From Ignavibacteriae bacterium HGW-Ignavibacteriae-3 (GTDB lineage: Bacteria; Bacteroidota; Ignavibacteria; Ignavibacteriales; Melioribacteraceae), in the NCBI GenBank assembly GCA_002839795.1, contig PGYS01000001.1, forward strand, positions 18,841 to 82,840: a DNA stretch of 64,000 bases, read 5' to 3'. A program made the position numbers and the translations under genes. Below, piece after piece: positions 2,615 through 63,989 of this stretch. Position 1 is the stretch's first letter. Each line of letters opens with the position of its first letter. The notes below the pieces were generated by a model. The model was not told where the DNA came from. It did no database searches and saw nothing but the letters and a program-made list of their open reading frames with translations.

Positions 2615-3805
2615 TCAGCTTTTACTCAAAGCCTGTTCAAGATCGTCAATAATATCCTTCACATTTTCGATCCCTACGGAAAGGCGAACAAGCCCCTCTG
2701 TAATTCCGGCATCCATTCTGGCCTCTGCGCCCATAGATAAATGCGTCATACTTGCGGGATGCTGAATCAATGTTTCAACACCGCCTAAACTTACCGCCAG
2801 AGTACATAATTTTACCGAATTCATTAAAACTTCTCCGGCTTTGAATCCGCCCTTTAATTCGAAAGAGATCATACCGCCGGGCGCGCTGTGCTGTTTTAAT
2901 CCTACTTCATAATTGGGATGGCTTTTCAATCCCGGATAGCGGACCCATTTGACTTTAGGATGATTCAAAAGATATTCCGCAATCAGCTGTGAATTTTCGC
3001 AATGCCTCTGCATTCGAATCGAAAGTGTTTTCAATCCTCTATGCACAAGAAAAGAATTGAAAGGATCAATTACTCCCCCATGCTGGTTCAGGGTTTTTCT
3101 CATTTTCATATACATGTCTTCATCTTTCACAACAATAATGCCGGCAACCACATCTGCGTGTCCATTTAAAAATTTCGTCATACTGTGAAGAACAACATCA
3201 ACGCCAAATTTGAACGGCTGCTGAAGCGCGGGACTCATAAAAGTATTGTCAACAACAACCAGCGCTCCATTTTTATGGGCAATCCTCGATGCAGCTTCAA
3301 GGTCGGTTATTGTAATCATCGGGTTTGCGGGTGTTTCAACGTAGACTATTTTTGTGTTTGTTTTAATTGCTTTTTCAATCGCACCTTCAACATCGGTATC
3401 AACAAATGTGGATTCCACACCGAACTTGCTCATTATCGTTTGAAGCAGCGTAAGAGTAGGTCCATAAACCGATTTCGAACATACAACATGATCACCCGAC
3501 TGAAGAAGAGATATAAAAACCGTGCTAATAGCAGACATTCCGCTTGCGCATCCCAAAGCTTTGTGTCCGCCCTCCAGCTCGGCAATCGCATTTTCCATTG
3601 CTTCGATGGTAGGATTTTTCATTCTCGTATATATATAGCCGTCAGCTTCGCCCTTGAAAAGCGCAGCGCCGTGTTCTGCGGATTCGAATTTAAATGTTGA
3701 TGTTTGATAAATAGGCGGAACTACCGGTCCGAATTCATATTCGGACATTCCCGAGTGAACGCATTTTGAACCGAATTGTAAATTTTTGTTATATGACATT
3801 TTCAT
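2615..3805 (-). CDS. Cys/Met metabolism PLP-dependent enzyme (methionine gamma-lyase / cystathionine gamma-lyase-like)
   Basis: Motifs 'YIYTRMKNPT', 'VVYVETPANP'-type, 'HSMTKFLNGHADVVAG' (PLP Lys); substrate not resolvable from sequence alone. Confidence 0.85.
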   Translation of the reverse strand: MKMSYNKNLQFGSKCVHSGMSEYEFGPVVPPIYQTSTFKFESAEHGAALFKGEADGYIYTRMKNPTIEAMENAIAELEGGHKALGCASGMSAISTVFISLLQSGDHVVCSKSVYGPTLTLLQTIMSKFGVESTFVDTDVEGAIEKAIKTNTKIVYVETPANPMITITDLEAASRIAHKNGALVVVDNTFMSPALQQPFKFGVDVVLHSMTKFLNGHADVVAGIIVVKDEDMYMKMRKTLNQHGGVIDPFNSFLVHRGLKTLSIRMQRHCENSQLIAEYLLNHPKVKWVRYPGLKSHPNYEVGLKQHSAPGGMISFELKGGFKAGEVLMNSVKLCTLAVSLGGVETLIQHPASMTHLSMGAEARMDAGITEGLVRLSVGIENVKDIIDDLEQALSKS

Positions 3806-3843
3806 TTCCTGTATTAACTGATGTTTTCCGGGCGAGAATGATT

Positions 3844-6291
3844 TTATTCTTCTCCGTTTCCATTTTCATCTTCCGGGATTACTCGGGCTATATCAGCAAT
3901 ATCATCGCCTTCATTCAGCCGGATCAATCTAACACCCTGTGTATTTCTTCCCATTACTCTGAGTTCATGAACGGCCTGACGGATTACCATTCCGCCCGTT
4001 GTTATAATTACAAGTTCATCCTTATCATTAACCTCTTTCATCGCGATCAGTTTGCCGTTTCTGTCTGATGTTTTAACGGTTATAACTCCTTTGCCGCCGC
4101 GCTTTGTAATTCTGTAATCCTCTATTTCCGAACGCTTGCCGAAACCTTTTTCCGTAACAACCATTAGCGTTGTTGCATTTCGGATTACGTTCATACCTAT
4201 AACGACATCTTTCTTGCCAAGTTTAATGCCCCTCACGCCGGTTGCGGTTCTTCCCATATCCCTAACATCTTTTTCGTTGAAGCGAATTGCCATTCCGTCT
4301 CTTGTTCCAATGACTATATCATTACTTCCTTCGCTCAGTTTTGCTTCAATAAGCCGGTCGTTGCCGCTAAGGTTGATCGCAATAATTCCGCCTTTTCGAA
4401 TGTTTGAGTAGGCAGACAGCACTGTTTTTTTAACTGTTCCCTGTTCGGTAGCCATTACTATGAACTTATCATCGGTAAAGTCCTTGACAGAAACGAATGC
4501 TGTAATGTTTTCTTCCTTATCTTTTTCAATAAGATTGAGAATGGATCTTCCCTTGGTGGCTCTGCCGCCTTCAGGAATTTCATGAACTTTAAGCCAATAG
4601 CATTTTCCCTTATCCGTAAAGAACATAATATAGTGGTGTGTTGAGGCCACGAACATATGCTCGATGAAATCCTCTTCGCGGGTTCCGGCGCCGGTAACAC
4701 CTTTGCCGCCGCGTCCCTGTCTGCGGTATCCGCTTACAGGAAAACGTTTGATAAATCCGGCGTGGGAAATTGTAACAACTACATCTTCTTCGGCTATAAT
4801 ATCTTCGAGTTTAAATTCCTGCAGATGCATTTCAATTTTGGTTCTTCGTTCATCAGCATATTTTCCCCTGAGAACAATAAGCTCCTCTTTGATTATTGAC
4901 CATCTTCTCTTTTCGTTTGTCAAAATACCTTTAAGTTTTTCGATGAACTTTAGGACCTCTTTATATTCATCCTCTATTTTCTGGCGCTCGAGTCCGGTGA
5001 GCCGCTGCAGTCTCATATCGAGGATTGCTTTCGCCTGAATTTCCGAAAGCTTAAACTTCTTCATCAAATTGTTTTTTGCAGTCTCTGTATCTCTCGATTT
5101 TTTAATTGTCTGAATAACGGCGTCTATATTATCGAGGGCAATAATGTATCCCTCCAGGATATGTGCGCGTCTTTCTGCTGCATCCAAATCGAACTGGGTA
5201 CGTTTTATAAGCACATCCATTCTATGATCAAGGAAGTGCTGCATCATCTGCTGGAGAGTTAATACTTTCGGCTGACCGTTAACGAGCGCAAGCATAATAA
5301 CGCCGAAAGTTACCTGCATCTGAGTGTGTTTAAACAACTGGTTCAGCGTAACCGCCGGCTGACCGTCCCGTTTCAACTCTATCACTATTCTCATGCCGTC
5401 GCGGTCGGATTCATCTCTGATGTTAGAAATACCTTCTACCTTTCCTTCGCGGACAAGATCTGCCATTTTTTCTATAAGAGATGCTTTGTTTACCTGATAA
5501 GGGATTTCGGTTATGATTATGTTTTCCCTATCATTCTTCAGTGTTTCAATATTCGCTTTGGCGCGGATTACTATTCTCCCGCGTCCGGTAAGTAAGGCCT
5601 CTCTAACTCCGTCATAGCCGTAAATTATTCCTCCGGTAGGAAAATCAGGTGCTTTTACAATTTTAATCAAATCTTCCGCAGATGTTTTTGGTTTATCAAT
5701 AATCGCAACAAGTCCGTCAATTATTTCTCCAAGATTATGGGGGGGAATGTTCGTGGCCATACCGACTGCGATTCCGCTTGCGCCATTAACGAGCAAATTA
5801 GGAAGATATGACGGAAGAACCGTGGGTTCCTGAAGTGATTCATCAAAATTATTAACAAAACTGACCGTGTTCTTATCAAGATCGCGCAGCATTTCATCTG
5901 CAATTCTTGCGAGACGCGCTTCAGTGTAACGCATTGCCGCCGGAGAATCACCGTCGACGGAACCAAAGTTTCCCTGTCCTTCAACCAACGGGTAGCGTAG
6001 CGAAAATTCCTGCACCATACGCACCATCGAATCGTAAACGGCAGTATCTCCGTGAGGATGATATTTACCGAGAACCTCGCCCACGATACGCGCGGATTTT
6101 TTATATGGTTTATTGTGCGGAACTCCAAGTTCGTGCATACCGAACAAAACGCGCCGGTGAACCGGTTTAAGACCGTCTCTTACATCGGGCAGTGCGCGGG
6201 CAACAATTACGCTCATTGCGTAATCGATGTAAGACGATTTCATTTCTTCTTCGAGTGATACGGGAACTACTTTTTCGAATATTGTTGTCAT
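3844..6291 (-). CDS. gyrA: DNA gyrase subunit A
   Basis: '[31 protein letters not shown]', '[10 protein letters not shown]' catalytic Tyr, GyrA-box-like 'QGRGGKG', directly downstream of gyrB. Confidence 0.97.
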
Positions 6292-6399
6292 TATTATGGA
6301 ATCTATATTTGGTTATTAAATTATTTTGCCTTCTTATTAGCGAACTTAATCTTGCTCTGTCCTTTAGAATGAGCTTATGAAAATGAGCAAGGCTGTAAA

Positions 6400-8694
<2,295 letters not shown>

Positions 8695-8717
<23 letters not shown>

Positions 8718-9807
8718 TATTTACTTTTATTAAAATGTTTTCGGCGCTAATATTCAGGCTTTCCGTTTTTGTAAGATCCGTCATTGTAATAAATGCCTGT
8801 CCTATCTCTGCGAGATACCCGCTTATTTTACCGGCGCGGTATGAGTCCAGTTCACCGAAAATATCGTCCATTAAAAATATCGGGGTTCTGCCGAGTTTTT
8901 CTTTAATGAAAAAAAATTGTCCGAATCTAAGGGCAATTTGAAAAGTCTTATGCTGTCCCTGCGATCCGAATCTTTTCAGTTCAAGTCCGTTTATTGATAA
9001 AATAAAATCATCCCTGTGCGGTCCGACCAGGTTTGTTCCCCGCCGCAACTCATCTTCTCTAAGAACAGATAATTCTTCCCTGAATTTTTCTGCCGTGTTT
9101 GTTTCCTGGATACCTGAAATTGAACTATAATTAATTGACGGCCTCTCTATGCTTTCAACAATGTGATTATAAGCTTGGGACAGATATTGATTAAATTCCT
9201 TTATAAACCTTATCCTGTGCTTAATGATCTCAGTGCCGCTAATAATAAGTGCTTCGGTCCAGGCTTCAAGCTGGCTGAACAGATTAATATTTCTTGATTC
9301 TTTAATTTGCGAGAGGAGCGCTGATCGCTGCCTTAAAGTTTTATTATACTCCAACAGAATTTCAAGATATGCATGGCTCGCTTGCGATATAACAGAATCA
9401 ACAAACCTTCTCCGTTCTGCCGGTGATCCCTGAGTTATTGCGTGATCGGATTGGATCAGTGAAACAATCGGAAACTTTCCAATAATGGATGAAGAATTGT
9501 ATATCTGCTTATCATCGAGGAAAAAATTCTTTTTGTTTTTAGGGAGGTCGTATAATAGTCTTGACTGGTTTTGCGTCAGATCTAAAAATCTTCCTTTGGC
9601 CTCAAAGAATTGCTCTCCAAACATAACAACATCGTTCTCGCTAGCGAGATTCAAATTTTTTGTAGTGCATAAATAGTAAATTGCCTCTAATATGGACGTC
9701 TTGCCCTGTCCGTTTCCGCCAACAATCAGATTTAGTTTATCGGAAAAATCCAGTGATGTGTGTTTATGCAGTCTGAAGTTAAGCAATTCAATTTGTTTCA
9801 GAACCAT
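8695..9807 (-). CDS. recF: DNA replication and repair protein RecF
   Basis: Walker A 'VGGNGQGKTSILEAIYYL', 'NLVGPHRDDF', 'SQGQHKTFQIALRFGQ', 'FLMDDIFGELD'. Confidence 0.97.
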
Positions 9808-14604: not shown

Positions 14605-17600
14605 TCACTTCTTTTTTGCCTGAATTGTTTGCCAGGAGAGCGATCTTCTGAGATGAAACGGATCAATGTAGTTTCTGTTAAGATTTACAAGAGCCATATA
14701 ATATCCTATCACCCTCTCATAATCATTAATATAATTTGCGGAAACTGCGCCCAGATAGTAAAAGTTTTCAGCATCTATTGATTCAAACAATTCCGGTTTC
14801 ATCCTAAGGATACTTTCTGCCCGCAGGCACATCTCCGCAGAGTATTTATATTCACCATTGATTAGGAACCCGTTTGCCAGCTGAAGGTAGACTTTTACTT
14901 TGGAGAGACTGTCCGGGCGTGTAGTTTTAATAAACACCGCGGCTTCCTTTTTTATCGAAAATAATTTCAGGAAAGTAGTGGCGTTGGTTTTTTCTAAAAT
15001 CAGGGCGTTATTATAATCTTTTAAAACCTGCGAAGAATCTGGAAATAAAGTAAACAGTTTTTCAAGAATGCCCGCACGGGAATCTTTAATGGAGAGCCTT
15101 TCAAGGGCCTTAACGTAAAGTGTATTGGCATCATAATCGCGCGGATATAATTCCAAAAGATATTTTGCTAAACCGAATGCATAACGGTTGTTTACATTTG
15201 TATTAAATAGGTAGTTGATTGTTTCAACTATGTCCCCCTTGCCGGGAGTATTATTTCTGACAAAGTCTTTCACTAACAATCCCCCGGAAAGCGTATCGAA
15301 CTTTTCATCGAATGTGTATATGTAGCCCGATGGTTTGCCGATATAAAATGATTTCGGCGCAAGAAACTCCAGCCGGGGAAAAATTTCCGAATTGACCGGA
15401 AGCTCCGATGTCATTTTAAAAAAACCGCGGGGCGATACCGTCTGACAGGACAGGAAACTGAAAATGCTTTTAATGCCGATGCGGTCAAAATCTTCTTTGA
15501 TCTCATTCGTTGAGAATTTTCTTTTAAGAAGAGTCTCATTCAATGTAATTTCATTTTTCGATCCGACGAGAATAATATCATTAGCTATAGAGCCCCACAT
15601 TTGGGCATTGGGAAAAACGGAGGCAAATGTATTAAGAACAAGCTTCACTACATCATCATCAGCCTCGTATAAATGAAACCATTGTACCATAATACCGTTG
15701 GAATCAAGGGCCGCGGAACATCTTTCAAAATATTCTTTTGAAAATAAATTTCCGATGCCGGCAATCCAGGGATTTGAAGGCTCAGAAATGATCACATCAT
15801 ATTTCTCCCTGGAGAGCTTCATCAAAGTTATTGCGTCTTCGTTGACCAGCTTGAGACGGGGATCCTCTATACAATTTCGGTTTTCATTATTGAAAAACTT
15901 TGCGGCTCTGATTACTTCGTTGGATATTTCCGCGCATGTAATCTTGTTCACGGGATGAGTCAATGCCGACCCTATTGTGGTGCCGCTTCCGAAACCGACG
16001 ACGAAAACATTTTTTGGATCCGGATGAAGCATCATTGGTATCTGGGCAAGCAAAACCTGTGTGGGCATATCTAAATATGAGCTTGCGTCGGGCTTCCCGT
16101 TTATGATCAATCTCTTATTATTGGAATTAGTAATTGATTGAGTAACAGCGACGGTTGCGTTAATTCCCTCCTCATAAAAAATAATATTTTCGGTTTCCGA
16201 TTCTTTAGAAAATTCAGAAAAAGATGATGGAGGCAGATTTCCCAATGAGCGGAAAACTCCCTTAATCATTACAGACCTGTTCCAAGTCGGGAAAAGAACT
16301 ATATAAAGGACAAATGACATTGCGAAGAAGAAGGAATATGAGGACCTGGTGATGAAGGAATATGAACCGTACGTCCAGAGCAGAATAATAGCCGCTAAAA
16401 GATTAAGTAAAATTCCGATTTCAAAAGTGCCTTTAATTCCCAAAAGAGGTATTAAAAATACTCCGGCGAAAATAACTCCCGCCACCGTTCCAACAGTATT
16501 TACTGAAAAAATCTTTCCTACCGAGAAGCCTATTTTCTTATTCGAGCTGGAGAGAATATCGGATGCGATAGGAAGCGCCATTCCCATGAATAAAGTGGGG
16601 ATGACCATTATGGAGAAGCTTATGGCAAACTCGAGCCCAATGAAAAGTCCGAAAGATTCCGATGTTCGAGTTAAAAACGAGGATGTTCGCCAGAAGATAT
16701 AAGGAAGCCGTTCGTACAGCAGAAGCACAGCCATAGTTGAAAAAGCAATTGCGGCCTGAGTGAAAGTGAGAAGTTTTACATAATTATATTTTCTAAATAT
16801 ATTTTTCGATATAATGAGACTGCCTATAGTTATTCCCCCAATGAACGCGAGCAGCATAATAGAAAAGGCGTAAGTTGAGGAGCCGAAAAAATTTATTAGA
16901 AGTCTTACCCAGACCATTTCATAAATCAACGCCGCCATTCCCGAAATCCCCGCAACAATTACAACCGCGATTGTAGTTTTTTTGTCAAAGTCCGGAAATT
17001 CTTTTGTAGAGCCATCTTCGTTTATAAGATCGGAAACTTCAGGCAATATATTTTTACTTTTCAGTGAAATAATAAGCCCTATCAATCCCGCCAGGATATT
17101 CAGCGCCGCCGTGGCATAGATGGTAGTATTCAACCCAAATTCTTTAATTAAAACAAACCCAGCGAATACAATACCGACTACAGCGCCGAATGAGTTAAGA
17201 AAATAAAGGATGGCGATCTCCCTGCGGGCATTCTGAAGTTTATCCACAAAAAATTTACTGAGCACCGGAAGCGTTCCGCCCATTGCTGCCGTCGGTGCAA
17301 ACAACAGAAGCGCGGCAATAATAAATCTTAATCCGGTAAAGAAAATATTTTGAGATGAAACATTTAATCCCGATGCAGCCTGAATAAAGAGGTCTCCTGT
17401 CCAACCGCTGATGGCGGGATACGCTAAACAGTAAGCTCCGATAAAAAGCTCAAGTATAGAGTAAATTCTTACCGGATTTTTAAATAAATCTGCTCGCTTG
17501 CCAAAGAAATAGTTTCCAAATGCCAGTCCCCCCAGAAATGTTGCCAGCACGGTCATTTGAGCGTAAGTCGTGTTGCCAAGGAACAGACTTAGAAACTTAA

Positions 17601-43454: not shown

Positions 43455-46160
43455 CTAATAGTAATATCCTATTGTGAAGTAAAAGTAGGTCGGTCCCCAA
43501 ACAACAACATTGTTTGAAAGCTTATTTATAAAGTAAAAACTCTTACCCACCGAGAAGTCCGCCGGCCCAAGAGGAGTATTGAAAGATACGGTCGCCCCTA
43601 CGCCATGCTTTAAATCTTTGAAGCGGATATGCTCCCTTTCTTCCCAGATTGAACCAATATCATAACGCGCTTTAACATATGTGTCAAAGAAAATTTTGAA
43701 CGGAATTTTGTACCTGTATTCAAGTGATGTAATTAGAATTTGTCTTCCGCGAAATTCGTCTTCCCGAAAACCAAAAAATGAATTCTGTCCCCCTAACGAA
43801 AACTGCTGGCTCAAAGGAAGAGTCTTATCTGCGGTCCCGATTACTCCGCGAAAGCTGAATGTGTTTATGCTGCGGTAGCTTATAATGTTTTTGTAGTCTA
43901 AATAAAATTTGGTATATCCTACATCGCCGCCGAAGGCAGTTTGTGCGGTTTCATAAATACTTTTTACCAAAAAACCGACGGTGGGATAAGGATAATTGTT
44001 TTGAGAATCGATCATAAGCGATATGCGCAAACTTGAAATATCTGTTTTATAGGTAGGACCTGTGTAATCGTGTTTATTCTTAATCTCGTCCCGCTGATAC
44101 CTGGCTTCCGCAAGAATATTTCCGAATTTTTCGACTTGGGCCCCGATCCCGAATGAACCACCATAGTATATCTGGCGGTACTCACCTGTTGTACTTCTGG
44201 AAAATTTATTCGTCGCACGAATTGAATCATCTCTATAAACATACACATCATTAAATTCGTTGAACGCTCTTAACTTATAAGTGAAGTAGGAATCAAAAAC
44301 GCGGTTTGCCTTATGTTCAAGGCTGTAAGAGCGGTTCCTGGCTCCTCCCGTTAGTGTGGCCCCTATTTCAGTGCCTGTTCCGTTGAAATTATCATCCCGT
44401 ATGTCGAGAGATAATTGCGCGAGGTTTTCGTTGTCGACCCTGACACCAAACCGGATAACATTTGAAATTTTTTCGGTCACATTTAATATCAGCTCATTGA
44501 TTCCGTTCTTGGGTTTAACCATAAGATCAATCTGATCAAAAAGATTTGTACTGCGAAGATTGGTTAGCCCCTTTTCGGCTAAATCATATTTAAATATTTC
44601 GCCCGCAGACAGAGGGAATTCCCTGCTTATGATTCTCTCCTGCGTTTTATGGTTCCCTTCAATAATAATTTTGGAAATCATTCCCTCGCTTAGATATATT
44701 CTAAGTTCTCCGGATTTTTCATCGAAGGAGATTTTTTCGATTCTGGCAAGGGAAAAACCGGACCGTTTGTACATCCGCAAAATTTCAAGAGCGGCATTTA
44801 ATGTTGCCTGCGGATTGAATGGCTTGTTCATCAATGCTGAAGTGATCCCGAGCGCTTTTACCATGTTTGTATCGGCAGTCCCTTCAAGATTTATTAAACG
44901 GATTTTTTCACGTTCGCTTGGCAAAAGGGTTATAATTGATTTCTCTCCGATCTCATCCACATTGAGAATCAAATCCTTCCAGCCGCCTCGACTGTACAAA
45001 TTATAAAGCTGATAATAAAGCTCTCCGCTTGAAACGGAATCTTTCTTTGCCAATGAGTAATAAAATATTTTATCTGTTTCGGTCGGATTTTCGCTAAGAG
45101 AGATATTCTTGAAAATTTTGTCGCTCACGGAAAAATGAGTTATTAAATGCCTCACATACTCCTGAGCAACTTTGACAGCAACGGGTTTGGCCGATGCATA
45201 GCCGGCTTGAACAACTTTAAAGATATTTGAAAAATCGGAATTCTTCCTGTCGGCTAATTCAGGCTGGATAATAAAATCGGCATTCTTTAATTGCTGATCG
45301 TTTAATAATTTCATCGGAATACTTACCAACTGGTCGGCAATTGTCCATGGAACGTCGAGCTCCTCCTCCGGATAGAGAGGGCTTGAAGCATTAACCGCGA
45401 CGATTATATCAGCGCCGAGTGATAAAGCCTCTCTTACGGGGACATTTGCAACCAAGCCGCCGTCAACCAGCATCAAAGAATCTCTTTTAACAGGCGGAAG
45501 AAGAAGTGTAACGCTTGAACTTGCCCGCATTGCCAATCCGAGCGGCCCCTTTTCAATCAGAACCTCTTTGCCGCTGATAAGATCTGTGCTGACGGCGCGG
45601 TATTTATAAAGGTAATTATCGAAGTTGTCTTCGGATAAAATCGGTGCGTTGATAGAGAGAAGATTTAAATTATTTGCGGCACGCTGACCGGAACTTATAG
45701 AAGTGGGAATGATCGGATTCAATCCATCCATTCTTAACGATATTATAGCACGGTCTTCGGATATTTTTTGATCTATGAAGAGATCATTGCGTGTTGATTG
45801 TTGCGACGAGAAAAAATCTTCCCAGTTTGTTTTCTGCAGCACCGAATCAAGATCGGCGACGGAATACCCCGCAGAATACAAACCTCCCACAATACTTCCC
45901 ATACTCGTTCCAACGATAATCGATAAGGGGATTTTTTCCTCTTCAAAGGCCCTAAGCACTCCCAGCGCAGAAAGGGAGCGGGCTCCGCCTCCGCTTAATG
46001 CCAAACCAATCTGTGGAAGCCCTGCGGCTATTTTCTCGGATAATCCAAAAGGAAGAGATTTTTCTTGAAGATCTAATTTAAGCGTTGTTCTGTTCTGTGC
46101 GGAAAGAGTACCCAGAAATAGAGAAAAAAGAAAAAAATGTATTATGAATAACGGCCTCAT
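43455..46160 (-). CDS. Patatin-like phospholipase fused to POTRA/BamA-like outer-membrane barrel
   Basis: 'GLALSGGGARSLSALGVLRAFEEEKIPLSIIVGTSMGSIVGGLYSAGYS' (GxSxG), 'LMLVDGGLVANVPV', C-terminal barrel 'LSLDIRDDNFNGTGTEIGATLTGG'. Confidence 0.92.
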   Translation of the reverse strand: MRPLFIIHFFLFSLFLGTLSAQNRTTLKLDLQEKSLPFGLSEKIAAGLPQIGLALSGGGARSLSALGVLRAFEEEKIPLSIIVGTSMGSIVGGLYSAGYSVADLDSVLQKTNWEDFFSSQQSTRNDLFIDQKISEDRAIISLRMDGLNPIIPTSISSGQRAANNLNLLSINAPILSEDNFDNYLYKYRAVSTDLISGKEVLIEKGPLGLAMRASSSVTLLLPPVKRDSLMLVDGGLVANVPVREALSLGADIIVAVNASSPLYPEEELDVPWTIADQLVSIPMKLLNDQQLKNADFIIQPELADRKNSDFSNIFKVVQAGYASAKPVAVKVAQEYVRHLITHFSVSDKIFKNISLSENPTETDKIFYYSLAKKDSVSSGELYYQLYNLYSRGGWKDLILNVDEIGEKSIITLLPSEREKIRLINLEGTADTNMVKALGITSALMNKPFNPQATLNAALEILRMYKRSGFSLARIEKISFDEKSGELRIYLSEGMISKIIIEGNHKTQERIISREFPLSAGEIFKYDLAEKGLTNLRSTNLFDQIDLMVKPKNGINELILNVTEKISNVIRFGVRVDNENLAQLSLDIRDDNFNGTGTEIGATLTGGARNRSYSLEHKANRVFDSYFTYKLRAFNEFNDVYVYRDDSIRATNKFSRSTTGEYRQIYYGGSFGIGAQVEKFGNILAEARYQRDEIKNKHDYTGPTYKTDISSLRISLMIDSQNNYPYPTVGFLVKSIYETAQTAFGGDVGYTKFYLDYKNIISYRSINTFSFRGVIGTADKTLPLSQQFSLGGQNSFFGFREDEFRGRQILITSLEYRYKIPFKIFFDTYVKARYDIGSIWEEREHIRFKDLKHGVGATVSFNTPLGPADFSVGKSFYFINKLSNNVVVWGPTYFYFTIGYYY

Positions 46161-48924: not shown

Positions 48925-49368
48925 GTTTTTACACCTAATACATTTGAAAGTGGCGCAAAATTACGGAAATAATAGACAATTACCAAAGCTGAGAGGGAAA
49001 TTCGGATACTTTAAAAGACGAAAAATTAACTGTTTTCACACTTTGTGGGGCAGAAAGTAATTTTTGATTAAAATTGGGGAATTTTCTTAAAATACTCTCA
49101 GATTAGAAGGGTTTTAAAACAACAGGGCGGTATCCCAGTGAACAGACCAGCCGAGTACCATTCACCAAAATAACCGCCGCCATCGAGAAAGTTTTTTCTT
49201 TCTATCAAATAAGAGGGTGCTTATTTATTATATATTATACAATCCTTGTGCCAGAACAATCCTTACTATTTTGAATAAAAAAAGATTTTTGTCAATGATT
49301 TGTGTTTCACTATGAGTCCCGTTATTAAAAAGAGTCATCGATTTCTGTCCCATTTTAGAAAAGAAAAA

Positions 49369-49384
49369 CCCCGCCTTGGCGGGG
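49369..49384 (-). terminator. Rho-independent-like terminator
   Basis: CCCCGC-cttg-GCGGGG flanked by A and T runs, after the 1470-aa gene. Confidence 0.75.
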
Positions 49385-49412
49385 CTTTTCAGCTTACTCG
49401 TTTAACCGCACC

Positions 49413-52400
49413 CTATTTCATTAAGATCATCTTTTTGGTGATGTTAACTTTGCTTCCGCTTAATCTGTAGATATACATTCCGCTCGCAAGTCTGCCTGCA
49501 TCAAAGTTTACCTTGTGAACTCCGCTGACCAGCTGACCGCTTATAAGTTCCGCTATTTCTTCGCCCAGGATGTTGTATACCTTTAATGAGTACACTCCAG
49601 CTTCAGGAACCGCAAACTGTATTGTGGTTGAAGGATTGAACGGATTAGGGAAATTCTGATCCAGATTGAACTCTGTAGGAACAGCATCGTTTTCCGTTAC
49701 ATTTGTGGTACCGTTTGCGCTCACGATCTTGAATAATTTGCCCTCTTTTGTCCCTACATAAACATCGCTTGAATTTCCGTTAACCATCATAGAGCTTATG
49801 CCGGATCCGTTCATTCCGAGCGATGACCATGTCTCGCCGTTATCACTCGATACATAAACTCCGTTTGTTATTGAGCTTACATAAATCTTTCCGGTATGAT
49901 CTACAGAGATCGAGTAAACAAAAGATACATTTAGCGAAGCTACTTTTGTAAAGCTCATTCCGTTATCAAGCGATCTGTATAAACCGTCTCCGTATGTTCC
50001 CGCATAAATCGCGTCTGCTTTTGCAGCCAGGGACCATATTACCGAGTAACCGCATGATAGTTTTGTAAAGTTCATACCGTCTGAACTGAAAAGACCTCCA
50101 CCGGCCGTGCCGACAAATAATTGGCCGGTCTTTACAGCCAGAGACTGGACCGCGGTAAATCCTTTCAGCGAAGCTGTGTTCATCTCTGTCCACGAAGTTC
50201 CGTCAGATGATTTGAATACTCCATATCCCCATGTTCCCGCGTATAAAGTTGTTCCGTCTGTCGCAAGAGCGTGAACGTCTTTTCCGGCCAGACCGGCTGC
50301 CGTTGTTCCATTGTATGTATAGACTCCCTTTTCAGTCGCGGCGTATACAGTTCCGTTGAACTTTATTAGCGACCAGATGAATGATACATTCATACCGTTA
50401 TTGGCAACCAACCAGCTCTTTCCGTTATCTGTTGATTTGTAGATCTTACCGCCCCATGTTCCAGCATAAATATCTCCGCCGTCATAAAGAATCGTGTAGA
50501 TAATTTCGCCGGGAGCGAAGGAGCATACGTTAGACCAGCTTCCGCCGGTTGTTCCGCCGCCGTTATTTCCCGTACCGTTATTTCCGCTTGTTCCCGTTAC
50601 CGATACCGTTGCGCTCGATGAGTTATTAGCGGGATTAGGATCTTGTGTTGAACTTGCGCTTACAGAGGCTATGTTTGTTATCTGCTTGTCAACCGGGATC
50701 TGTCCGCCAAAGAATACAGCGTTAAACTGTCCCATTCCTGTAAGAGACTTGCAGATCATCTGGCCGTTGATAACTCCGCTCGCGAAGTTTACTGCTGCAA
50801 ATGGAGCAAGCACAGATCCCGTTATGTCAATGCCCTGGATTGTCAGTGATGTTGCCTGAGGGAAGTTAAAGAGAACATTGGTTGTTGCCGTTCCGTTTAC
50901 AGTTAATCCGCCAGTCCAGCTCAACGTTGTTCCGCTTGTGTTGATCAGCACTACAGATCCGTTTGGAACATTGATAGTTAAATTGTTTGCTGACGAAAGA
51001 TCCGCTCCCGATACAGAGAATACGTTAAGGTAAGGATCTGTTCCTGCTAAAATTATGCCGCCCCATTGTAATGTTGTAGTTCCGGTGGTTGCATAACCGG
51101 CAAGTGTTGTTGATAAATTTTCCAGATATGTTTTCGCAGCCGCAAAGTTGATCGGACTGTCTTTGCGGAGTGTTCCGCCTGTGATGCTCACAAGAGAGAG
51201 AGGAAGATTCGTTGCGTGTCCGTAAACAACGTTTCCGTTGTAGATCGCGCCGCTTGTAAATGTAAGGTCGTTTCCAACAATTAGAACATCTCCGCTGCCC
51301 GATGGAAGCTGATCTCCGATGCTGTAATTTGAGAACTGCGCGTTGCGTCCCACAGCAACTCTGCCCTGAGTATCAGATGACGGCTGAAGAACGTCTTCTA
51401 TTACAAATAAGTTATAATCTTTTGCTATGCCAAGATCGAATACTGCGTTGTTCACCTGTCCGCAGTCCACTTTAACTGTTATTGTTAAAGTCGCGAATGC
51501 ATTATTGGCAAGTGTTCCAATGTTCCAGATGCCTGTTGTTGAATTATATGATCCCTGTGAAGGAGAATTTGACACATAAATTAAACCGGTCGGCAATAGA
51601 TCTGTTACCTGAACTCCGTTTGCCGTATTGGGGCCGAGGTTGGTTGCCTTGATTGTGAATGTTACATTCTGGTCGCATTGAGGATTAGCATTGTTTACGC
51701 TCTTCTCTACTTTTATGTCAGATTTATCCTGGCAGATAATATTTACCGTCCACGTGCTTTCGTCTGTAACCGAGACCGATCCGTCTACAGGATGACCTAC
51801 TGCGCGTGCTCTGTTAACCAGCTGACCGCAGTCCTTATCGCTTGTAACATATGTCTTTGTGAAGGTGGTTGAAGTGCGCGGATTAAGTATGTTAATATGT
51901 TCTATTAAATTATTTCCGGTCGGATTAAGCATAGCATCGAATATATCAACACCGCCGTGAAGCTGAATGTCGCCGCAGTTTTCAACAAGGAATGAATATG
52001 TTACCGTCTCGCCTTTATTGTATGATGATTTATCCGAGGTCTTTGTGATGTTCACGCATGTTTTATAGTAGCCGAAGTTGATTGATAAATTATCGTTGCA
52101 GTTTAAAGTTGTGTTTACCGAAGTACTGTTCTTTGTGTACCATTTTGTCTGTGTGCTGCTGTAAAGAACTCCGCCGGAAGCAAAATTGGAACTGGCCAGT
52201 TTTACCGTGTAGGGCGCATTTGATAAATTAGAGAACGAATACATTCCGTTAACATCGGTTGTTTTTGTAGATACCAGAGTGGTTCCGCTATATAATTCAA
52301 CTACGGCCCCGGCTATTCCAGGTTCGCCGGAATCCATTACTCCGTTTGTATTCAAATCGCGATACACATAACTGCCGATATTGTTTTTGCATATAATTTC

Positions 52401-53825
52401 TTCGCAGGCCAGAAAACCTTTGTCGGTGGTTCCGTTGTCAAAATTCTCGTTGATTGCTGTGGCTGCGTCATTTATCTGGCTGAAAGTTTTTCCGTTCAAC
52501 GGCCCGCCTCCGATTGCTGCTTCGGCATATGCCAGGAAAGATGTCACGGTCATACCTGTAAATGGACCGATTGCAATTGTAAGATCGCCGAGTTTAACTG
52601 TATTGCTGCCTATTTTTCCAGCAGCGCTATATTTAACATTTAATTTTAATGCGGTTAATTGACCCGACAGTACATTAATGGAAGAAGTCGGATTATTATA
52701 GTTTTGTGTATAAGCCGCAGCAGTTCCTCCGTCCGGAAGATAATTCATTACATCAGATGCGGTAGAGAGAGTAAGTTTATATCCTCCGCCGATAGTCAAA
52801 CCGCTTGGAAATACAGTTGAAAAATATAGATCTCTGATTTTACCTGGTGTGCTGTTAGAAGGACTTCCCCATCCGCCCTGTGTATATGTTGTAAATCCTT
52901 TTGTATCGCAGGATCCCGGGTTTCCCGGTGTGTACCATGTAACCGTTACATTTACCTGTTTGGTATCATGTGCCGGAGTTGCAAGGACCAGTTTCTGTTT
53001 TTCACCCGGCTTTGCTTTATGAACATATCTCGTTCCCTGTGAGATTTCCACTGCCGCCTGGGCCTTGATTGTTGCTGTTCCGATTCCGGTGTAAGATAAA
53101 GTTACAGGGCCCACGCGGCCGGAGGAATTTGTTGTTCCGCCTGAAATATTCAAGGTTCCCAGATTCGTGGTAAGTGTTATAGGAAGACCGGAGATGGGAT
53201 TGCCGTTAAAATCCAGCGCATAAACATCGAATGTTGCAGCTGTTCCCTGAGGAAGCGTCTGAGCCGTTGGAACAAAAATCAAACTTTGCAACGGAATTGT
53301 ATTAGTATGATTTGCCGCTGCATTGGCGATGATTGCCAGCGCCCTGTTTTTAACATCAATATTATTTGAAATAGAATTAGCATTAACGCCATCGGCGAAG
53401 TGCCATATAGCAAATTGAACAGCTGCCGCTTCCTTGCCGTTGTCCGAAAGCTTGCCTGTGTAGCTGGTTTTATAAGGAAAATAATTATTCAATATGTAGG
53501 TTATCTGGGATGGTGTACTTGATTCATCCCAATAGTCCTCATTATAAGCCAGCGAGTGTTGAACATCGATACAGTAGAATTTTTTTGTTACGGAATTTAG
53601 TGTTCCGTTAAAAGTTCCTGCAAAATGTGAGGTGCTCTGATTTGTGTATGGATTCGTATAACTTACACTGTTAACACCTTCGGCCGTGCCGGTAACTTTA
53701 ACTATGCTGGTGTAATCGAGCGCACCCTGAATATTGCCCTGTTGGGCAAACATAGGGACGGATAACCAGACAAAGAGCGATGTCATTAAAAACACTCTAA
53801 AGTAAGCTGTTAAACGATTCTTCAC
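49413..53825 (-). CDS. 1470-aa mosaic T9SS surface protein: Cys-Gln thioester domain, SdrD-B-like, DUF11-like, choice-of-anchor-A-like, beta-propeller, T9SS sorting tail
   Basis: '[10 protein letters not shown]' + '[11 protein letters not shown]'; '[31 protein letters not shown]'; '[33 protein letters not shown]'; 'FNVFV..'-like anchor-A block; '[19 protein letters not shown]...KKMILMK'. Confidence 0.82.
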   Translation of the reverse strand: [1470 protein letters not shown]

Positions 53826-56448: not shown

Positions 56449-57789
56449 CTATTTTATAAAGGACATTTTCTTCGCTGCTGAATGATTTCCGACTTTTAGC
56501 CGATAAAAATAAACACCGGTTGAGAGTGTCGAGTTTAGAGCGGAGAATGTAGAGGTATAAATTCCAGCGGTTTGAAATTCGTTAACAAGAGTTATCACTT
56601 CACTGCCGAGAACATCATAAACTTTTAATGAAACGTCTGCACTTTCTGATAGCCGGTAATTTATCACAGTCTCCGGATTAAATGGATTGGGAAAGTTCTG
56701 CATGAGTTCAAACGCTGCGGGAAGATTTTCTTTATCATTGACGCTTGTGGGAACTCCGAATAAAAAATCAGCGTAAATGGGGAGATGATCGGACGAAAAC
56801 AATAATGCATTGCCGATTGATATATCAGAAAACCATGAGTTGGGTCCGTTTGTAACAGACTTTGCGTAATGATTCCCGTCATTCCCGAAGATTTTGTAAT
56901 CAACTAAATCTATACCGCCGGATTTCTTGATCGATTCAGAAATTAAAATCATATCGAGACGAGATTTTAAATTACTCGGAGAATATGTATGTGTATTTGC
57001 GAATGCTGAATTGTTTGCCCAATAACCAACGGCATCCTGGGGATCGTAAACATATCCAGGGGTGGTTTGATCCAGCAGCTTTTGAAAGGCAAGCTCGGTT
57101 GATGTTAAGATGTTGAAATCTCCCGCAACTATAAAATTTGTTTTTTCTTTCAATTGTGCCGTTCTTGATCTAAGAGTGGTTACCGAGTTGGCCCGCCTCG
57201 TGATGTTCGGGCTATTATCTCCGGATGTAACATTTGCTTTCAAGTGAACACCAAATACAATCAACGTATCTTTAGTGATTTTATGAACAAACTTAAACTC
57301 AGCGAACGGTCTCGGGTCGGATGTAATCATTGATGAGCCGAGGTAGGTTATCAGAGAATCGATATAAAAGACCGCGCATTCATTCCCTGTTCCCCAGTAA
57401 ATGTTAACTTCGGTTGACGCTTTGTACTTTGGCGTTAACACGTCAGTAAGAACTCTTTGGACAGCCGTTGTTCCATCCAGCTCGACAGCCAAGAGTATGG
57501 TTGGCTTTATCTGATCCAGTACAATTTTAAGATATCCTGCAACAGAACTTGAGTTTGAAACATTCGGGAACTGTTTAACATTATAAGCGGCAATCCTGAC
57601 TGTCTCCTGTCCGTAAAGGGAGAATGTTAAAATCAAAAACAAAGGCGGGAGCAGTTTCTTTTTCAAGACGATCCTTTTATTAACAAAATTTTGGGAAGTA
57701 AATCTACTGAAAATATTGTCAAGTGTTAGAGTAAATAAAAAGCGGCTTTGAAGAAAGCCGCTCGCAAATGAACCTTTGACAGCTTGCAT
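56449..57789 (-). CDS. Secreted endonuclease/exonuclease/phosphatase-family protein with T9SS sorting domain
   Basis: '[12 protein letters not shown]', '[10 protein letters not shown]', '[11 protein letters not shown]'; '[19 protein letters not shown]'; probable start is a downstream TTG ([10 protein letters not shown]). Confidence 0.82.
   Translation of the reverse strand: [446 protein letters not shown]
57741..57762 (-). terminator. Rho-independent terminator with CTTC tetraloop
   Basis: AGCGGCTTT-CTTC-AAAGCCGCT followed by TTTTTATTT on the minus strand. Confidence 0.8.
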
Positions 57790-57810
57790 CTAACTTCATA
57801 CCCCGGACAT

Positions 57811-60585
57811 TTATTTCATCAGTATAAGCTTTGCGGATTTATTAAAGCCCTTTCCGCCGGTTATTGATTTTGCGTGTATTGTGTAAATATAAACGCCTCC
57901 GGATACTTGTTGTCCCGAATAATTATCTCCGTTCCATCTAACAGAGTGATATCCTGCTGATTGAGAATTAAAATTGAACGAATTGACCACTCTTCCCAAT
58001 ATATCAATGATATAAATTTTTACACTGGAATTTTCCGGCAAAGCGTAACGGATGTTTGTGCTCGGATTGAATGGATTCGGATAATTCTGGTACATCTCAT
58101 ATTTTTCCGGAATGCCGGAGTAAACATCATATAGACCGGTGAGACTTGTAGTTACACTAATTGTATTTGAATACGGACTTGCTCCAAAGGAATTCGACGC
58201 CGAGACCCGGTAATAATATGTTGTGTTCGCACTCAGTGAACTAACATTTAGAGATGTTAAAATTCCCGCGTTCTTATTCTCATAACCGGCAATGAAGGTA
58301 GAAAAATCGCTGACGGTTGATACATCAAGCCAGTAATTGGAGGCGTTCGAAGAAGCGTTCCAGTTTGCGGTAAATCCGTCTTTCGTAACTCCGGTGGCTG
58401 TGGTTGCCACGGGAGCCATCAAAAGCGTAACAACTGATATTGTGTTTGAGTTAGGACTCGTGCCGCCGCTGTTTGATGCACGGATACGGTAATAGTGTTG
58501 CGCGCTTGGGCCAAGCCCGGTAATATTTAATAATGTGATCAGGCCGACTGATTTGGAATTGTAATTTGGGAGAATATTAGTAAATCCTGCATCCGTGGCA
58601 ATGTCTATTAAATAGTATTCTGCTCCCGCCGACGGATTCCAATTGGCTGTAAAACCGCTTGTTGTAATATTTGAAGCGTCCTTTGCAACCGGTGCAGCCG
58701 GGATCGGAAGATTTTGCGTAATGACCGTAATTGTATTTGAATTATCACTCGTGTAAATGACGTTGGATGACCGGGCCCTGTAATAATAAGTTGTTCCCGG
58801 AGAAAGCGATGAAATGGTTGCCGATGTATCCTTTCCAACATCCTTGTTGTTATAGCCTGTCAGAAGAGAAGAAAAGTCATTTTTTGTTGAAACATCTATC
58901 TTATAAGAAACAGCATTGGCGGAACTGTTCCACTTAGCTGTAAATCCGGTTGTTGTGATGTTGGCTGCCGGCAGAGCAATAGGAGGGGCCATTAAAAGAT
59001 TTACCGAAATTGAGTTTGAACTTGTGCTTGTAACATTGTTGTTTGCTGCGCGAACGCGGTAGTAATAAATTCCGCCGGGTATAAGAGAGGAAATGCTTAC
59101 AGATGTTACATTTCCAAGATCCAGATTATTATAATTTGTTAATAATGATGAAAAATCGGATGAAACAGATACGTCAATTTTATAAGAGGTTGCGTTTGTT
59201 GAAGCGTTCCAGGCGGCTGTAAATCCGGTTGTAGTGACGTTAGTTGCCGGCAGAGCTGCGGGAGGAGCCATTAAACAGGTAACAGAAATTGTGTTGGAGC
59301 TTTGACTTGCTGTTTCTCCGCTTGCGGCGCGTACCCTATAATAATATACCGAGCCCGGATCCAATCCGGATATGTTTGCCGAGGTGACATTCCCTACGTC
59401 TTTATCATTATAACCCGATAGAAGAGTTGAAAAGTTGGATGAGCCGGATACGTCAATTTTGTAGGAGCTTGCATTTGCCGAACTGCTCCAGTTGGCCGTA
59501 AATCCGGTGGAAGAAATATTTGTTGCGGGTGCGGCAAGCGGTACTGAAGGGGTAACTGAACTCATTGTGGTGACAGTTATCGAATTTGAATTTCCGCTGG
59601 TGCTCGTGCTGTTTGAAGCCCTCACACGATAATAGTAAGTTGTACTTGGAGTTAGCGAGGAAATATTTGCTGCTGTTACGTTTCCCACGTCTTTGTTGCT
59701 GTAATTTGCCAATAATGATGAAAAGTCCGAGGAAGCAGATACGTCAATTTTATAGGACGTTACGTTAGCCGAAGCGCCCCAGTTCGCAGTAAAAGATGTT
59801 GAAGAAATGTTGGTTGCCGCGGTTGCTACCGGCGCTGTTAAGGCTGGCGTTGCCGGAGGCAATAGAGTTGTCCAAGTAGTAGCCATTCTAATTCCATCAA
59901 CAACCGTCTGAGGCTGTGAAGTTGTACCCTGTCTGAGAGCAATTGAGTTTACAATATCCTGGCCGGATGTTGTTGATGAAAATTCAGGTACACCCGCGTC
60001 TGATTCAGATGCTGGAATTGATGTTGGGAAAACCCACAAATCGGCTCTATCATCTCCGGCGGTATTAATTGTATACTTAACGACAAGAAGGTAAGTAGTG
60101 TTTGTTAAATAATTTGTCGTACCATAGGCCCCGGTAGAAGTATTTGAAATACCAAAATTTACACCACTACTGGTAGTTTTGGCAAAAACTCTTGCGCAGA
60201 ATGAAGAAAAAGATATTACGCTTGTTCTATTGCCGATATGAATAAAATAGTCGCCTGACTTGTTTGCGCTCTCCGTAACTTTTAACATAAACGAAAAATA
60301 AACTGTAGCACCATTTGTATTGTAAGGACCGACTCCGGCAGTAAAATTAACATCTTCACCGCCCAAATTTCCTACTAGTGCCGCATTACCAAGGCCGCTG
60401 TTTGGATAGCCGGTAAAAGTTAATCCTGTTGTTGTGCTAATTTCATTAGTCCCCGTGCCGCTATGTGTCGACCAACCATTGGCGTTCAACTTGCCTGAAT
60501 AATTAAAATCGTCAACAGTCTGTCCCCTAGAATTGTCTGACAAGGAAAACCAAGCAATTAAAAACAAGAATATTAACTTTTTCAT
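57811..60585 (-). CDS. Secreted multi-Fn3 protein with T9SS sorting domain
   Basis: Signal peptide, lectin-like N-terminal region, six Fn3-like repeats, '[18 protein letters not shown]...KSAKLILMK'. Confidence 0.85.
   Translation of the reverse strand: [924 protein letters not shown]
58145..59835 (-). repeat. Six tandem Fn3-coding repeats, about 280 bp each
   Basis: Repeated 'ATNIxxxxFTANWxxSxNAxSYxIDVSxxxDFSxLLxxYNxKDVGNVTxxxISxLxPGTxYYYRVRAxN'. Confidence 0.8.
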
Positions 60586-60638
60586 ATTCGTCTCAGTTTT
60601 GTTTTGTGGTTCATAAATAAAATTTAATTAGACAGATA

Positions 60639-63600
60639 TTATTTCACTAATAACATTTTTTTTGTCTGTGTAAAGCTTATTGCTCTGTTCGATGAATTAT
60701 CGACAGCGTTTATTTTATAAATGTACATTCCGCTGGTCAGGGTTGCTGCGTTAAAGGATATTTCATGATATCCGGCACCCTGAGCCCCGTTAAAGATTTT
60801 AGCTACCTCTTCACCCAGAACATTGTATATAGTTATGCTTACTTCGCTGTCATTCGGCAATCCGTACCTTATAACAGTTGAGGGATTGAAGGGGTTCGGA
60901 TAATTCTGTTCTAAACAGTAATGGTCTGGGATTCCTAAATTAAGATCCTCTACATCGGTAGCCTCCCCAAAAGTCCTGGCGGCCTGAATCAAGTCAATTA
61001 TCTTAGGGCTTCCTATAACGCCATTTGCTATTATGGTTATTGTTCCTGTTCTGGCAATACTGTTATTTGCAGAGTATCTTATTTTTACTGTGCCATCATT
61101 TGTTCCTGTGGCGCCGTCAGTAATTACAACCCAGAATACATTGGAAACTGCCGACCAGTTCATTTGTCCTCCTCCGGTATTGGAAACGGTAATAGTTGCG
61201 GTGCCCGACGTTGCTGTTGCCTGAAAGCTTAGCGGGGAAACACTTAATACACGGACTTTGGTAAAATTTGCCACTAAAGCTCTGTTCATTGTAAGTGTAA
61301 AAGTATAAGATGTGCTGTCTGAAAGTATTTTCCCGTTTTCCGTCCAATTGGTAAAATCATAGCCGGCATTGGGAACAGCAATTAGTTTTACAGCAGACCC
61401 GTAATTAAAAGTCCCAAAGCCGGAGACGGTCCCGCCTTCGGAAGGACTTGAAGCCGCGGCCACCGAAATTTGATTGACTAAAAAATTTGCCACGAAGGAT
61501 CTGGTTGAATTTATTGTAAATGTAAACTTCGGATTTGTTGATACAATCTTTTCATGCTCAGTCCAGCTTGCAAAAGAATAACCTGATGATGGAGTTGCAG
61601 TCAATGTTACGGATTCACCCGGATCGTAAGTCCCCCCTCCCGTCATTGTTCCTCCGCCGGATGGTGATGGGGTTAAGAAAACATTATATCTGCGTGAAAC
61701 ATTTATTATTCTGTCTATCTGATTACTCTCATAATATGGGTCTGATACTTTAATGCTTATTGTCCGCGATAAGGTATCCGGACTATCGCTGTTGCAGCGG
61801 TATGTAACAGTTCTCAGGACAGATTCGTAATTAGGCAGTGAGCTTGTATTTCTTAAGATTAATAATCCGATGGCAGCGTCCCACGTTCCGGAAATACCTT
61901 CCTGTGGAGTGAAACTCAGAACATCCTGGTCGCTTTTATAATTGTTAGAGATTCTTACTTCGGCAGAAACTAAATTGGAAATCCCGGCATCTGCGATGCT
62001 GATTCCATTTGCAATTACTATAGGACTATCTCCTTGTTTATAATTTATTGCAGAAGACTCAATCCCGGAAAGAACAGGCGGAGTGTTTCCAATGTCAATT
62101 ACTCTGAAGAGCTCATTGCTTTCGGCGGCCCCGTCATTTATTTTGAAGCGGATAGTTCTTCGATATAAATTCAGAACAGGTCCTTCGATCCGGCTGTAAT
62201 AAATGCTTCTCAGCGCGTTTTGGTAATTTAGTAAAGTGGCTGTTCCTGTGAGATTTAATGTCCCGGTTGAAGCGTCCCAATTTCCGGTAATTCCGCTTCC
62301 ATCTGTGAACGTTAGCAGATCATACCCGTTTTGATAATGACCAGTGATCTTAATTTCAGCGCTACTTAAACTATCATTATCGGCATCGTTCACTATTATT
62401 GTATTTGTTATTTTTGTTGCAGAGCCACCTCTGGAATAAATCAAGTTCGCTGTCTCTATTGAATTCAGGATAGGGCCTTGATTGTGTGTTGTAACAGAGA
62501 CAATGTTTGAACTTTCACTCGTTCCGCTGAGGTTAATCGCGCGGACGCGAAAATAATATGTTGTTTTGGAGGTGAGATTAGAAACAATAAAGCTCGTAAC
62601 AATTCCCACATCTTTATTATAATATCCCGTAATAAAACTCGAAAAGTTGGAAGTCGTTGAAACGTCCAGCCTATAGTTCGTGGCTCCCGCCGAACCGCTC
62701 CAATTTGCCATAAAAGAGTATGTTGTTATTCCGGTTGCCGCAGATGCTTCAGGTGTAGTAATCTTCTGATCCCAAATCGTAAATTTATCGGTTGTTCCAA
62801 ATACTTTCGAATTATACCAATTGCTAACTTTTATTCCGCATTGATCCGAATTTACACCATTTGGGATAGTCCACGCGTAAAAGGTTAGTGCGGGGAACGG
62901 TTGATCCTTCCCATCCGGCAAGATTTGTATCCAGGAGTTTCCATTATCTGTTGTATACTCCAGTCTCACGCCAGAGAAAGATCCCTTTTTATTCCATGAA
63001 ATAAATTGAGTAGTGCCGCCCTGAAAACGGGCCCCGCCTTGCGGCTCAATTATATTAATGCTTTGAACGATTCCGTTGAAAATTGCGCTGCCTAGCCCGA
63101 ATTGTGAAAAACTGGTGAGTCCCGTAATGGTAAATTTGCCGGGAATACCGTCAGTCGATCTATTTGTTATAACTGCATTAATCGGGGCTTGAGTAACATC
63201 CTCCCAGAGAGAATTTTCATCTTGTCTTTTTAATACTTTAAAAGTCGAATAATCGTCTAAGCCTAATTGAGAAAAATCAAGTACCACGGTGTAAGTCCCC
63301 GCGCTTTGTACAGATGATTCAATACTGAAAAATAACGGCAGAAGCGATGTTCCAGCAGCAGAAAGAGAAAATCCCGCGCCGGATGCCGGCTGCGTCTCTG
63401 TTTTATTAACAGTTAAAGTAGTGCCCGTTGAAGAACCGCTCGGAAAAGTGACAGTTACTCCGGAAGTTATAAAAGTGGTAGAAGTAGATGTTGTAGAAAC
63501 GGGAATAGCCGTTACTTTTGTGGATTCATCCAGAACTTTATAGAGACCCAGAAGCGGCGAAACAAGATTATACTCGCTTGTTAAACCGCTGCCTTGGAAG

Positions 63601-63989
63601 CTATAAATAGTGTAATAATAATTTGTGTTCTTAATTAAATTGACTTCCGTGAATGATGTATTGCTTCCAACATAAGATATATTGTCAGCGCCATTTGGGC
63701 CTACTGTGTAATCAACCCCATTTACAGGACTGAATGATGGAGGACTACCGGGATGTCGCGCTACGAGATATTGAACTCCGTTTGTTGTTGCTGTCCAAGA
63801 GACTCTAAATGATGAACTGTTCAGAATTGTAAAACTTAAATTTACCGCCTGTGGTGCAGCCGCAAGGCTGTTAACTGAAATTGAATTGGAGTTCGCGCTT
63901 GTTGCATTGCTGCTAGATGCGCGCACCCGGTAATAATAAGTTGTTCCCTGTGTGAGATTTAAAATATTCGCTGTTGTCGCATTCCCCAC
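60639..63989 (-). CDS. 5'-truncated secreted protein: Fn3, paired cadherin-like repeats, InlB-B-like repeats, BACON-like domain, T9SS sorting tail; continues beyond the window
   Basis: Open to the window edge ('...LDVGNATTANI'); 'GGTMTGGGTYDPGESVTLTATPSSGYSFASWTE' x2; 'LEQNYPNPFNPSTVIRYGL...KKMLLVK'. Confidence 0.8.
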   Translation of the reverse strand: MGNATTANILNLTQGTTYYYRVRASSSNATSANSNSISVNSLAAAPQAVNLSFTILNSSSFRVSWTATTNGVQYLVARHPGSPPSFSPVNGVDYTVGPNGADNISYVGSNTSFTEVNLIKNTNYYYTIYSFQGSGLTSEYNLVSPLLGLYKVLDESTKVTAIPVSTTSTSTTFITSGVTVTFPSGSSTGTTLTVNKTETQPASGAGFSLSAAGTSLLPLFFSIESSVQSAGTYTVVLDFSQLGLDDYSTFKVLKRQDENSLWEDVTQAPINAVITNRSTDGIPGKFTITGLTSFSQFGLGSAIFNGIVQSINIIEPQGGARFQGGTTQFISWNKKGSFSGVRLEYTTDNGNSWIQILPDGKDQPFPALTFYAWTIPNGVNSDQCGIKVSNWYNSKVFGTTDKFTIWDQKITTPEASAATGITTYSFMANWSGSAGATNYRLDVSTTSNFSSFITGYYNKDVGIVTSFIVSNLTSKTTYYFRVRAINLSGTSESSNIVSVTTHNQGPILNSIETANLIYSRGGSATKITNTIIVNDADNDSLSSAEIKITGHYQNGYDLLTFTDGSGITGNWDASTGTLNLTGTATLLNYQNALRSIYYSRIEGPVLNLYRRTIRFKINDGAAESNELFRVIDIGNTPPVLSGIESSAINYKQGDSPIVIANGISIADAGISNLVSAEVRISNNYKSDQDVLSFTPQEGISGTWDAAIGLLILRNTSSLPNYESVLRTVTYRCNSDSPDTLSRTISIKVSDPYYESNQIDRIINVSRRYNVFLTPSPSGGGTMTGGGTYDPGESVTLTATPSSGYSFASWTEHEKIVSTNPKFTFTINSTRSFVANFLVNQISVAAASSPSEGGTVSGFGTFNYGSAVKLIAVPNAGYDFTNWTENGKILSDSTSYTFTLTMNRALVANFTKVRVLSVSPLSFQATATSGTATITVSNTGGGQMNWSAVSNVFWVVITDGATGTNDGTVKIRYSANNSIARTGTITIIANGVIGSPKIIDLIQAARTFGEATDVEDLNLGIPDHYCLEQNYPNPFNPSTVIRYGLPNDSEVSITIYNVLGEEVAKIFNGAQGAGYHEISFNAATLTSGMYIYKINAVDNSSNRAISFTQTKKMLLVK

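Follow-up and report, generated by a model that had tools for sequence, protein, structure and literature searches.

The gene, its export signals and its surroundings

The window, a 64,000-nucleotide stretch of contig PGYS01000001.1 from Ignavibacteriae bacterium HGW-Ignavibacteriae-3, carries on its minus strand a gene for a 1470-aa protein in which a thioester domain (TED) is followed by a multidomain stalk and a T9SS sorting tail (Table 1). The GTG start of this reading frame is preceded by a purine-rich stretch resembling a ribosome-binding site. Both marks of T9SS type A cargo are present, namely a C-terminal sorting domain, matched by PF18962 (Por_Secre_tail; 31.8 bits against a cut-off of 27) and TIGR04183 (36.7 bits against 23), and an N-terminal Sec signal, read from the sequence; an LPXTG-type sortase anchor is absent. 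The same genome encodes SprA (833 bits) and a PorV-family protein (208 bits), each over its family cut-off, and a PorU-like protein which scores 217 bits, under the family cut-off of 420.

The neighboring genes are of housekeeping type, encoding RNase P protein, YidC, a TRAM-domain uracil methyltransferase and another methyltransferase, and no conjugation or pilus gene lies directly beside the adhesin gene. Given a gap of approximately 400 bases to the upstream gene, and a terminator-like stem at the 3' end, the adhesin gene is probably transcribed alone. Elsewhere in the window, a patatin-POTRA-Omp85 fusion (43455-46160, minus strand) resembling PlpD-type (type V) secretion proteins is encoded near yidC and rnpA, and three further T9SS-tailed proteins are encoded at 56449-63989 (minus strand): one nuclease-like, one with fibronectin type III repeats, and one with Flg_new_2, fn3 and BACON-type domains.

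Table 1. Features of the adhesin gene, with positions in the window
Feature	Residues	Positions	Strand	Basis
Gene of the T9SS-tailed putative thioester adhesin	1-1470	49413..53825	-	Open reading frame and domain matches; GTG start
Signal peptide	1-28	53742..53825	-	Reading of the sequence; putative cleavage MFA/QQG
Predicted class II TED, complete	41-298	52932..53705	-	Pfam TED (first part), family alignment, AlphaFold2 and Foldseek
Predicted thioester Cys, in KFYCID	Cys85	53571..53573	-	Conservation
TQxxPhiW-equivalent helix motif (putative support residues)	Gln137-Trp141	53403..53417	-	Alignment with 5dcq and 4c0z; conservation
Ig-like insertion, hallmark of class II TEDs	~178-259	53049..53294	-	Big_1 match at aa 195-259 and model strands
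Predicted thioester Gln, in KQKLVLATP	Gln277	52995..52997	-	Conservation; alignment with Embleya TED Gln
SdrD_B-like stalk domain	482-547	52185..52382	-	Pfam
DUF7507 (CLIPPER_2) stalk domain; triad Lys595/Asp630/Asn671	586-698	51732..52070	-	Pfam
DUF11 (CLIPPER) split domain; triad Lys708/Asp742/Asn1051	703-794 and ~1046-1080	50586..51719	-	Pfam, three stretches
Nested ice-binding-like adhesive/choice-of-anchor A domain	798-1040	50706..51434	-	PF20597 (E=1e-60); TIGR04215 (E=9e-62)
Propeller-like repeat region	1101-1375	49701..50525	-	Weak BNR match; partial F510_1955 glycosylhydrolase match below cut-off; repeats by eye
T9SS type A sorting tail	1392-1467	49425..49652	-	PF18962 and TIGR04183
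Terminator-like hairpin 3' of the gene, 12-pair stem		49363..49390	-	Consensus scan; suggestive, since the regional count equals that in shuffles

The stalk described in an earlier note on this DNA is confirmed by matches to SdrD_B, DUF11, choice-of-anchor A/ice-binding-like and sorting-tail families, to which we add DUF7507; the proposed propeller corresponds to a weak BNR match. Recent crystal and prediction work identifies DUF11 and DUF7507 as isopeptide-bonded domains (PMC12617251). Lys595, Asp630 and Asn671 of the DUF7507 domain are identical in all 33 aligned segments, and the DUF11 triad is retained almost throughout the relatives (Lys708 in 68/69, Asp742 as Asp or Glu in 68/69, and Asn1051 in 68/69). 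From their position and conservation, we infer that these Lys-Asp-Asn triads supply the bonding residues. The ice-binding-like domain falls between Asp742 and Asn1051 of DUF11, so that a bond between Lys708 and Asn1051, if formed, would close DUF11 about the insertion, and may constitute an isopeptide clamp around the nested adhesive domain.

Identity, extent and residues of the thioester domain

The TED family search that the earlier note had suggested returned a Pfam TED (PF08341) match at aa 83-169 of 46.1 bits, against a cut-off of 22 (E=7.2e-12), a score which indicates that the motif did not arise by chance; the NCBIfam TQXA_dom model scored 20.6, under its cut-off of 30.4. Cys85 and Gln137, the latter encoded at 53415-53417, lie where the earlier note had placed them in the 1470-aa minus-strand protein. 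The sequence FYCID fits the [YFL]C-hydrophobic-polar motif of thioester cysteines, and Cys85 is at the end of a strand in the AlphaFold2 model. It is the sole cysteine in the first 305 residues, and the TED regions of 78 out of 95 relatives likewise contain a single cysteine, making a disulfide role within the domain unlikely. Gln137 falls within an 11-residue stretch containing the helix motif VQFAIW, in which Val replaces the Thr of TQxxPhiW, and a profile of 27 relatives aligns it with TQLAIW and TQNAIW of the streptococcal structures 5dcq and 4c0z.

The domain interval proposed previously (53380-53640) is too short. The complete domain reaches approximately aa 298 (52932), some 450 bases further, and the alignment beyond that interval reveals, downstream of the Ig-like stretch, the sequence QGTRYVH...KQKLVLATP. 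Class II TEDs carry an Ig-fold insertion of approximately 75 residues ahead of their last two strands, and the bond-forming glutamine, on strand Q, lies near the end of the domain (PMC6194298). Gln277 occupies a [K/Y]QKLV motif of the PhiQzetaPhiPhi type on a late strand, preceded by Lys here and by Tyr in many relatives, and is invariant in the 27 sequences of the first family alignment. Among 95 distinct sequences, Cys85 is conserved in 94, Gln137 and Trp141 in all 95, and Gln277 in 92 of the 94 which reach the site; the three without it comprise one whose contig ends early, and two tandem paralogues in Ignavibacteria Bin_45, one with Ser at the Cys position as well. Loss of both residues from one copy is as expected if the pair functions jointly. 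Cys85 and Gln277 are near-invariant at 30-70% identity, with Cys85, Gln137 and Trp141 kept down to approximately 30%, and the conservation of both Cys85 and Gln277 would be hard to explain without a joint function. Their spacing of 192 residues sits between those of the proven class II pairs of SaTIE (171) and EfmTIE86 (204; PMC6194298). Two other glutamines were considered as thioester partners and rejected: Gln180 (PLQSLIF) fits the motif by eye, but is conserved in only 25/95 sequences and is located where the Ig-like insertion begins, and Gln189 (PTAQTLP; 68/95) belongs to a typical Ig-like domain start.

An AlphaFold2 model of aa 31-300, built from an alignment of 94 sequences, has a mean pLDDT of 92 and a pTM of 0.81, and places the strands of the Ig-like part between the helix at 126-145 (local numbering) and the last strands. 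Searched against the PDB with Foldseek, this model retrieved class II TEDs at ranks one to four, all aligned over the whole domain (E=1e-10 to 3e-9), with 6fwy (E. faecium TIE86) first (E=1.3e-10, 296 columns) and 6fwv (BaTIE protein) also among them. The TM-score to the class II crystals is approximately 0.5, with an rmsd of 8.7 A over the whole domain, which may indicate that the two lobes are set at a different angle. Class II TEDs also ranked first for an earlier model of aa 27-205, which ends before Gln277. At the level of sequence, single-sequence phmmer found no TED in the PDB, and the family profile found weak TED matches, the fold comparison being clearer. Together, these results predict that the N-terminal domain is a class II ('slipknot') TED with a Cys85-Gln277 bond.

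Relatives within and beyond the phylum

The adhesin gene is not a one-off, but is common in its family. TEDs were detected in 23 of 299 genomes sampled across the phylum, almost all of them belonging to the same order as the window, and in 16 of the 18 listed genomes of the window's family. With the family's own profile, the adhesin TED was found in 57 of 80 genomes of this Melioribacteraceae-type family of Ignavibacteriota, including 45 of 57 good-quality genomes, and in 26 of 35 genera. The named relatives are Melioribacteraceae and other Ignavibacteria, including Melioribacter and Stygiobacter electus. The C-terminus is complete in 76 relatives, 75 of which carry a T9SS-type PNPF tail (assigned by pattern); the sole exception is a protein from an Anaerolineae (Chloroflexota) MAG (L097, 4042-5793), which combines the same type of TED with Big_1 and GEVED, and ends in a membrane-type rather than a T9SS tail, which may reflect either transfer or a binning error.

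Several family genomes carry two or three TEDs. In a Stygiobacter-type genome, two diverged TED genes lie less than 10 kb apart (L036, ~5012-5830 and 14720-15523, minus strand), and Ignavibacteria Bin_45 (L134) has three short T9SS-tailed TED genes in tandem (3668-5086, 5860-7281, and 7448-8845), two without the strand Gln; these degenerate copies, beside an intact one, are possibly non-covalent. A distant genome in the phylum encodes a short TED-like protein (L023, a 228-aa open frame, with the same region in L054) with the motifs YCVD, LQAAIW and KQGLV. Its tail is of PEP-CTERM type, and may represent a third way of anchoring TEDs in Gram-negatives.

No relatives were found in the phages searched. 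A tblastn search of plasmids yielded one record, from Embleya sp. NBC_00888 (L138; Streptomycetaceae), which encodes a TED protein with an LAETG sortase signal. The family profile scores 47 bits on this protein, compared with at most 5.9 in 500 shuffles, and its YCID, TQAAIWH and TQTLI motifs align with Cys85, Gln137, and Gln277. Like the adhesin, it has the Cys, helix Gln and strand Gln, with an Ig-like region after the TED; unlike the adhesin, it is short, lacks a T9SS tail, and has no choice-of-anchor A or DUF11 match. The alignment points to one domain type, which is sortase-anchored in Embleya and T9SS-tailed in the adhesin.

A proposed covalent adhesin on another envelope type

The closest parallels are the class II TEDs of Gram-positive TIE proteins (EfmTIE86, 6FWY; BaTIE, 6FWV; SaTIE; and the TIE protein of Bacillus subtilis plasmid pLS20), with which the adhesin shares the Cys motif, the helix Gln/Trp motif, the Ig-like insertion, a strand Gln at similar spacing, the fold match, and an N-terminal position on a multidomain isopeptide stalk; the isopeptide-bonded stalk domains that characterize Gram-positive TIE proteins are represented here by sequence triads. 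It differs in having a T9SS tail in place of the sortase signal, in belonging to the Gram-negative Ignavibacteriota, in its approximately 15% identity to the crystallized domains, in the Big_1-like character of its insertion, and in the ice-binding-like domain nested in its stalk. Class I TEDs (SfbI, Cpa, FbaB) also have the Cys and helix motifs and give weak profile and fold matches, but lack the Ig-like insertion. Among Gram-negative proteins, the adhesin resembles the fibrillar CLIPPER (DUF11/DUF7507) adhesins, in which these domains, with conserved Lys, Asp and Asn, accompany Por_Secre_tail, a co-occurrence already reported (PMC12617251); it goes beyond them in that its N-terminus bears a class II TED and its DUF11 domain encloses an adhesive domain. 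The adhesin thus appears to be a Gram-negative, T9SS-delivered counterpart of the Gram-positive TIE adhesins. The earlier note had proposed a Gram-positive-type TED on a T9SS-tailed multidomain adhesin, and the motifs, predicted class II fold and tail bear this out, with the exception of Gln137 as the bond partner.

With good though not complete confidence, we regard the protein as a fibrillar adhesin that is secreted by the T9SS, remains attached to the surface, and carries a class II TED at its outer tip. Following export via Sec and then T9SS, Cys85 on strand C would react with Gln277 at the strand-Q position, past the Ig-like insertion, releasing ammonia and closing an internal thioester; Gln137 and Trp141, on the central helix, would support it. 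When the protein meets its target, an amine there, such as that of a lysine, would attack the Gln277 carbonyl, leaving a permanent amide bond. SdrD_B, DUF7507, and DUF11, the latter two with a Lys-Asp-Asn triad each, would lend strength to the stalk, the nested ice-binding-like domain may add non-covalent contact, and the T9SS tail would stand in for the sortase signal of Gram-positive relatives. From homology to characterized TEDs, we infer thioester formation and covalent binding, and, as to the nature of the target, proteins of neighboring cells, particles, or biofilm matrix would probably serve.

Three other readings compete with this proposal. A thioester between Cys85 and Gln137, as the earlier note envisaged, is highly improbable: Gln137 is invariant (95/95), and the equivalent Gln adjoins the Cys in solved TEDs (PMC6194298), but it aligns with the TQxxPhiW helix Gln, which is known not to form the bond, and is therefore better seen as a helper residue. 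In crystal structures, the Gln and Trp of this motif sit next to the thioester, where they form hydrogen bonds with the Cys backbone (PMC4450167, PMC6194298), and mutagenesis of Cpa, cited in PMC4450167, showed that the bond can do without either of them. All TEDs of known structure considered in these papers have their bond-forming Gln on a later strand (PMC6194298), and a conserved Gln, Gln277, is present at just such a site, so that the evidence favors Gln277 as the partner. An unlikely though credible reading is that the fold persists as a non-covalent binding or structural tip, with the thioester absent or hydrolyzed and Cys85 a bystander. The Gln-less copies in Bin_45, one of them also Cys-less, offer a precedent for such a state, but both residues are intact in the adhesin, and near-invariant across highly diverged relatives.

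Quite doubtful, too, is the reading in which the thioester acts within the producer's own surface, cross-linking its envelope or matrix or joining sister cells, rather than on foreign targets. These bacteria are free-living relatives of Melioribacter with no known host, and the occurrence of the TED in the majority of family genomes points to a general role, both of which suit that reading; against it, the TED sits at the N-terminal tip of a long stalk, as in adhesins, and the TEDs known so far either bind proteins of foreign origin (PMC4450167) or function in contact with other cells (PMC8092201). A surface adhesin that acts through a Cys85-Gln277 thioester is the interpretation we retain.

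The paper defining bacterial TEDs placed them 'exclusively in Gram-positive bacteria' (PMC4450167), a later survey was limited to Firmicutes and Actinobacteria (PMC9210967), and their Gram-positive conservation has been described (PMC8092201). The open-access literature searched contained no description of a Gram-negative or T9SS-linked TED, which does not prove that none exists. Since the TED itself is already detected by Pfam, what is new is the way in which lineage, export route and nested stalk come together. We lean toward the view that, in this free-living Gram-negative lineage, T9SS-exported, isopeptide-braced class II TED adhesins serve routinely for attaching permanently and covalently to cells or particles, with no animal host involved. 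If so, covalent thioester adhesion would be neither a Gram-positive nor a pathogen speciality, and the question arises of what a TED binds where there is no host. A class II TED that is delivered by the T9SS and retained across a family of Ignavibacteriota would bring covalent adhesion to a further type of envelope, and into free-living communities.
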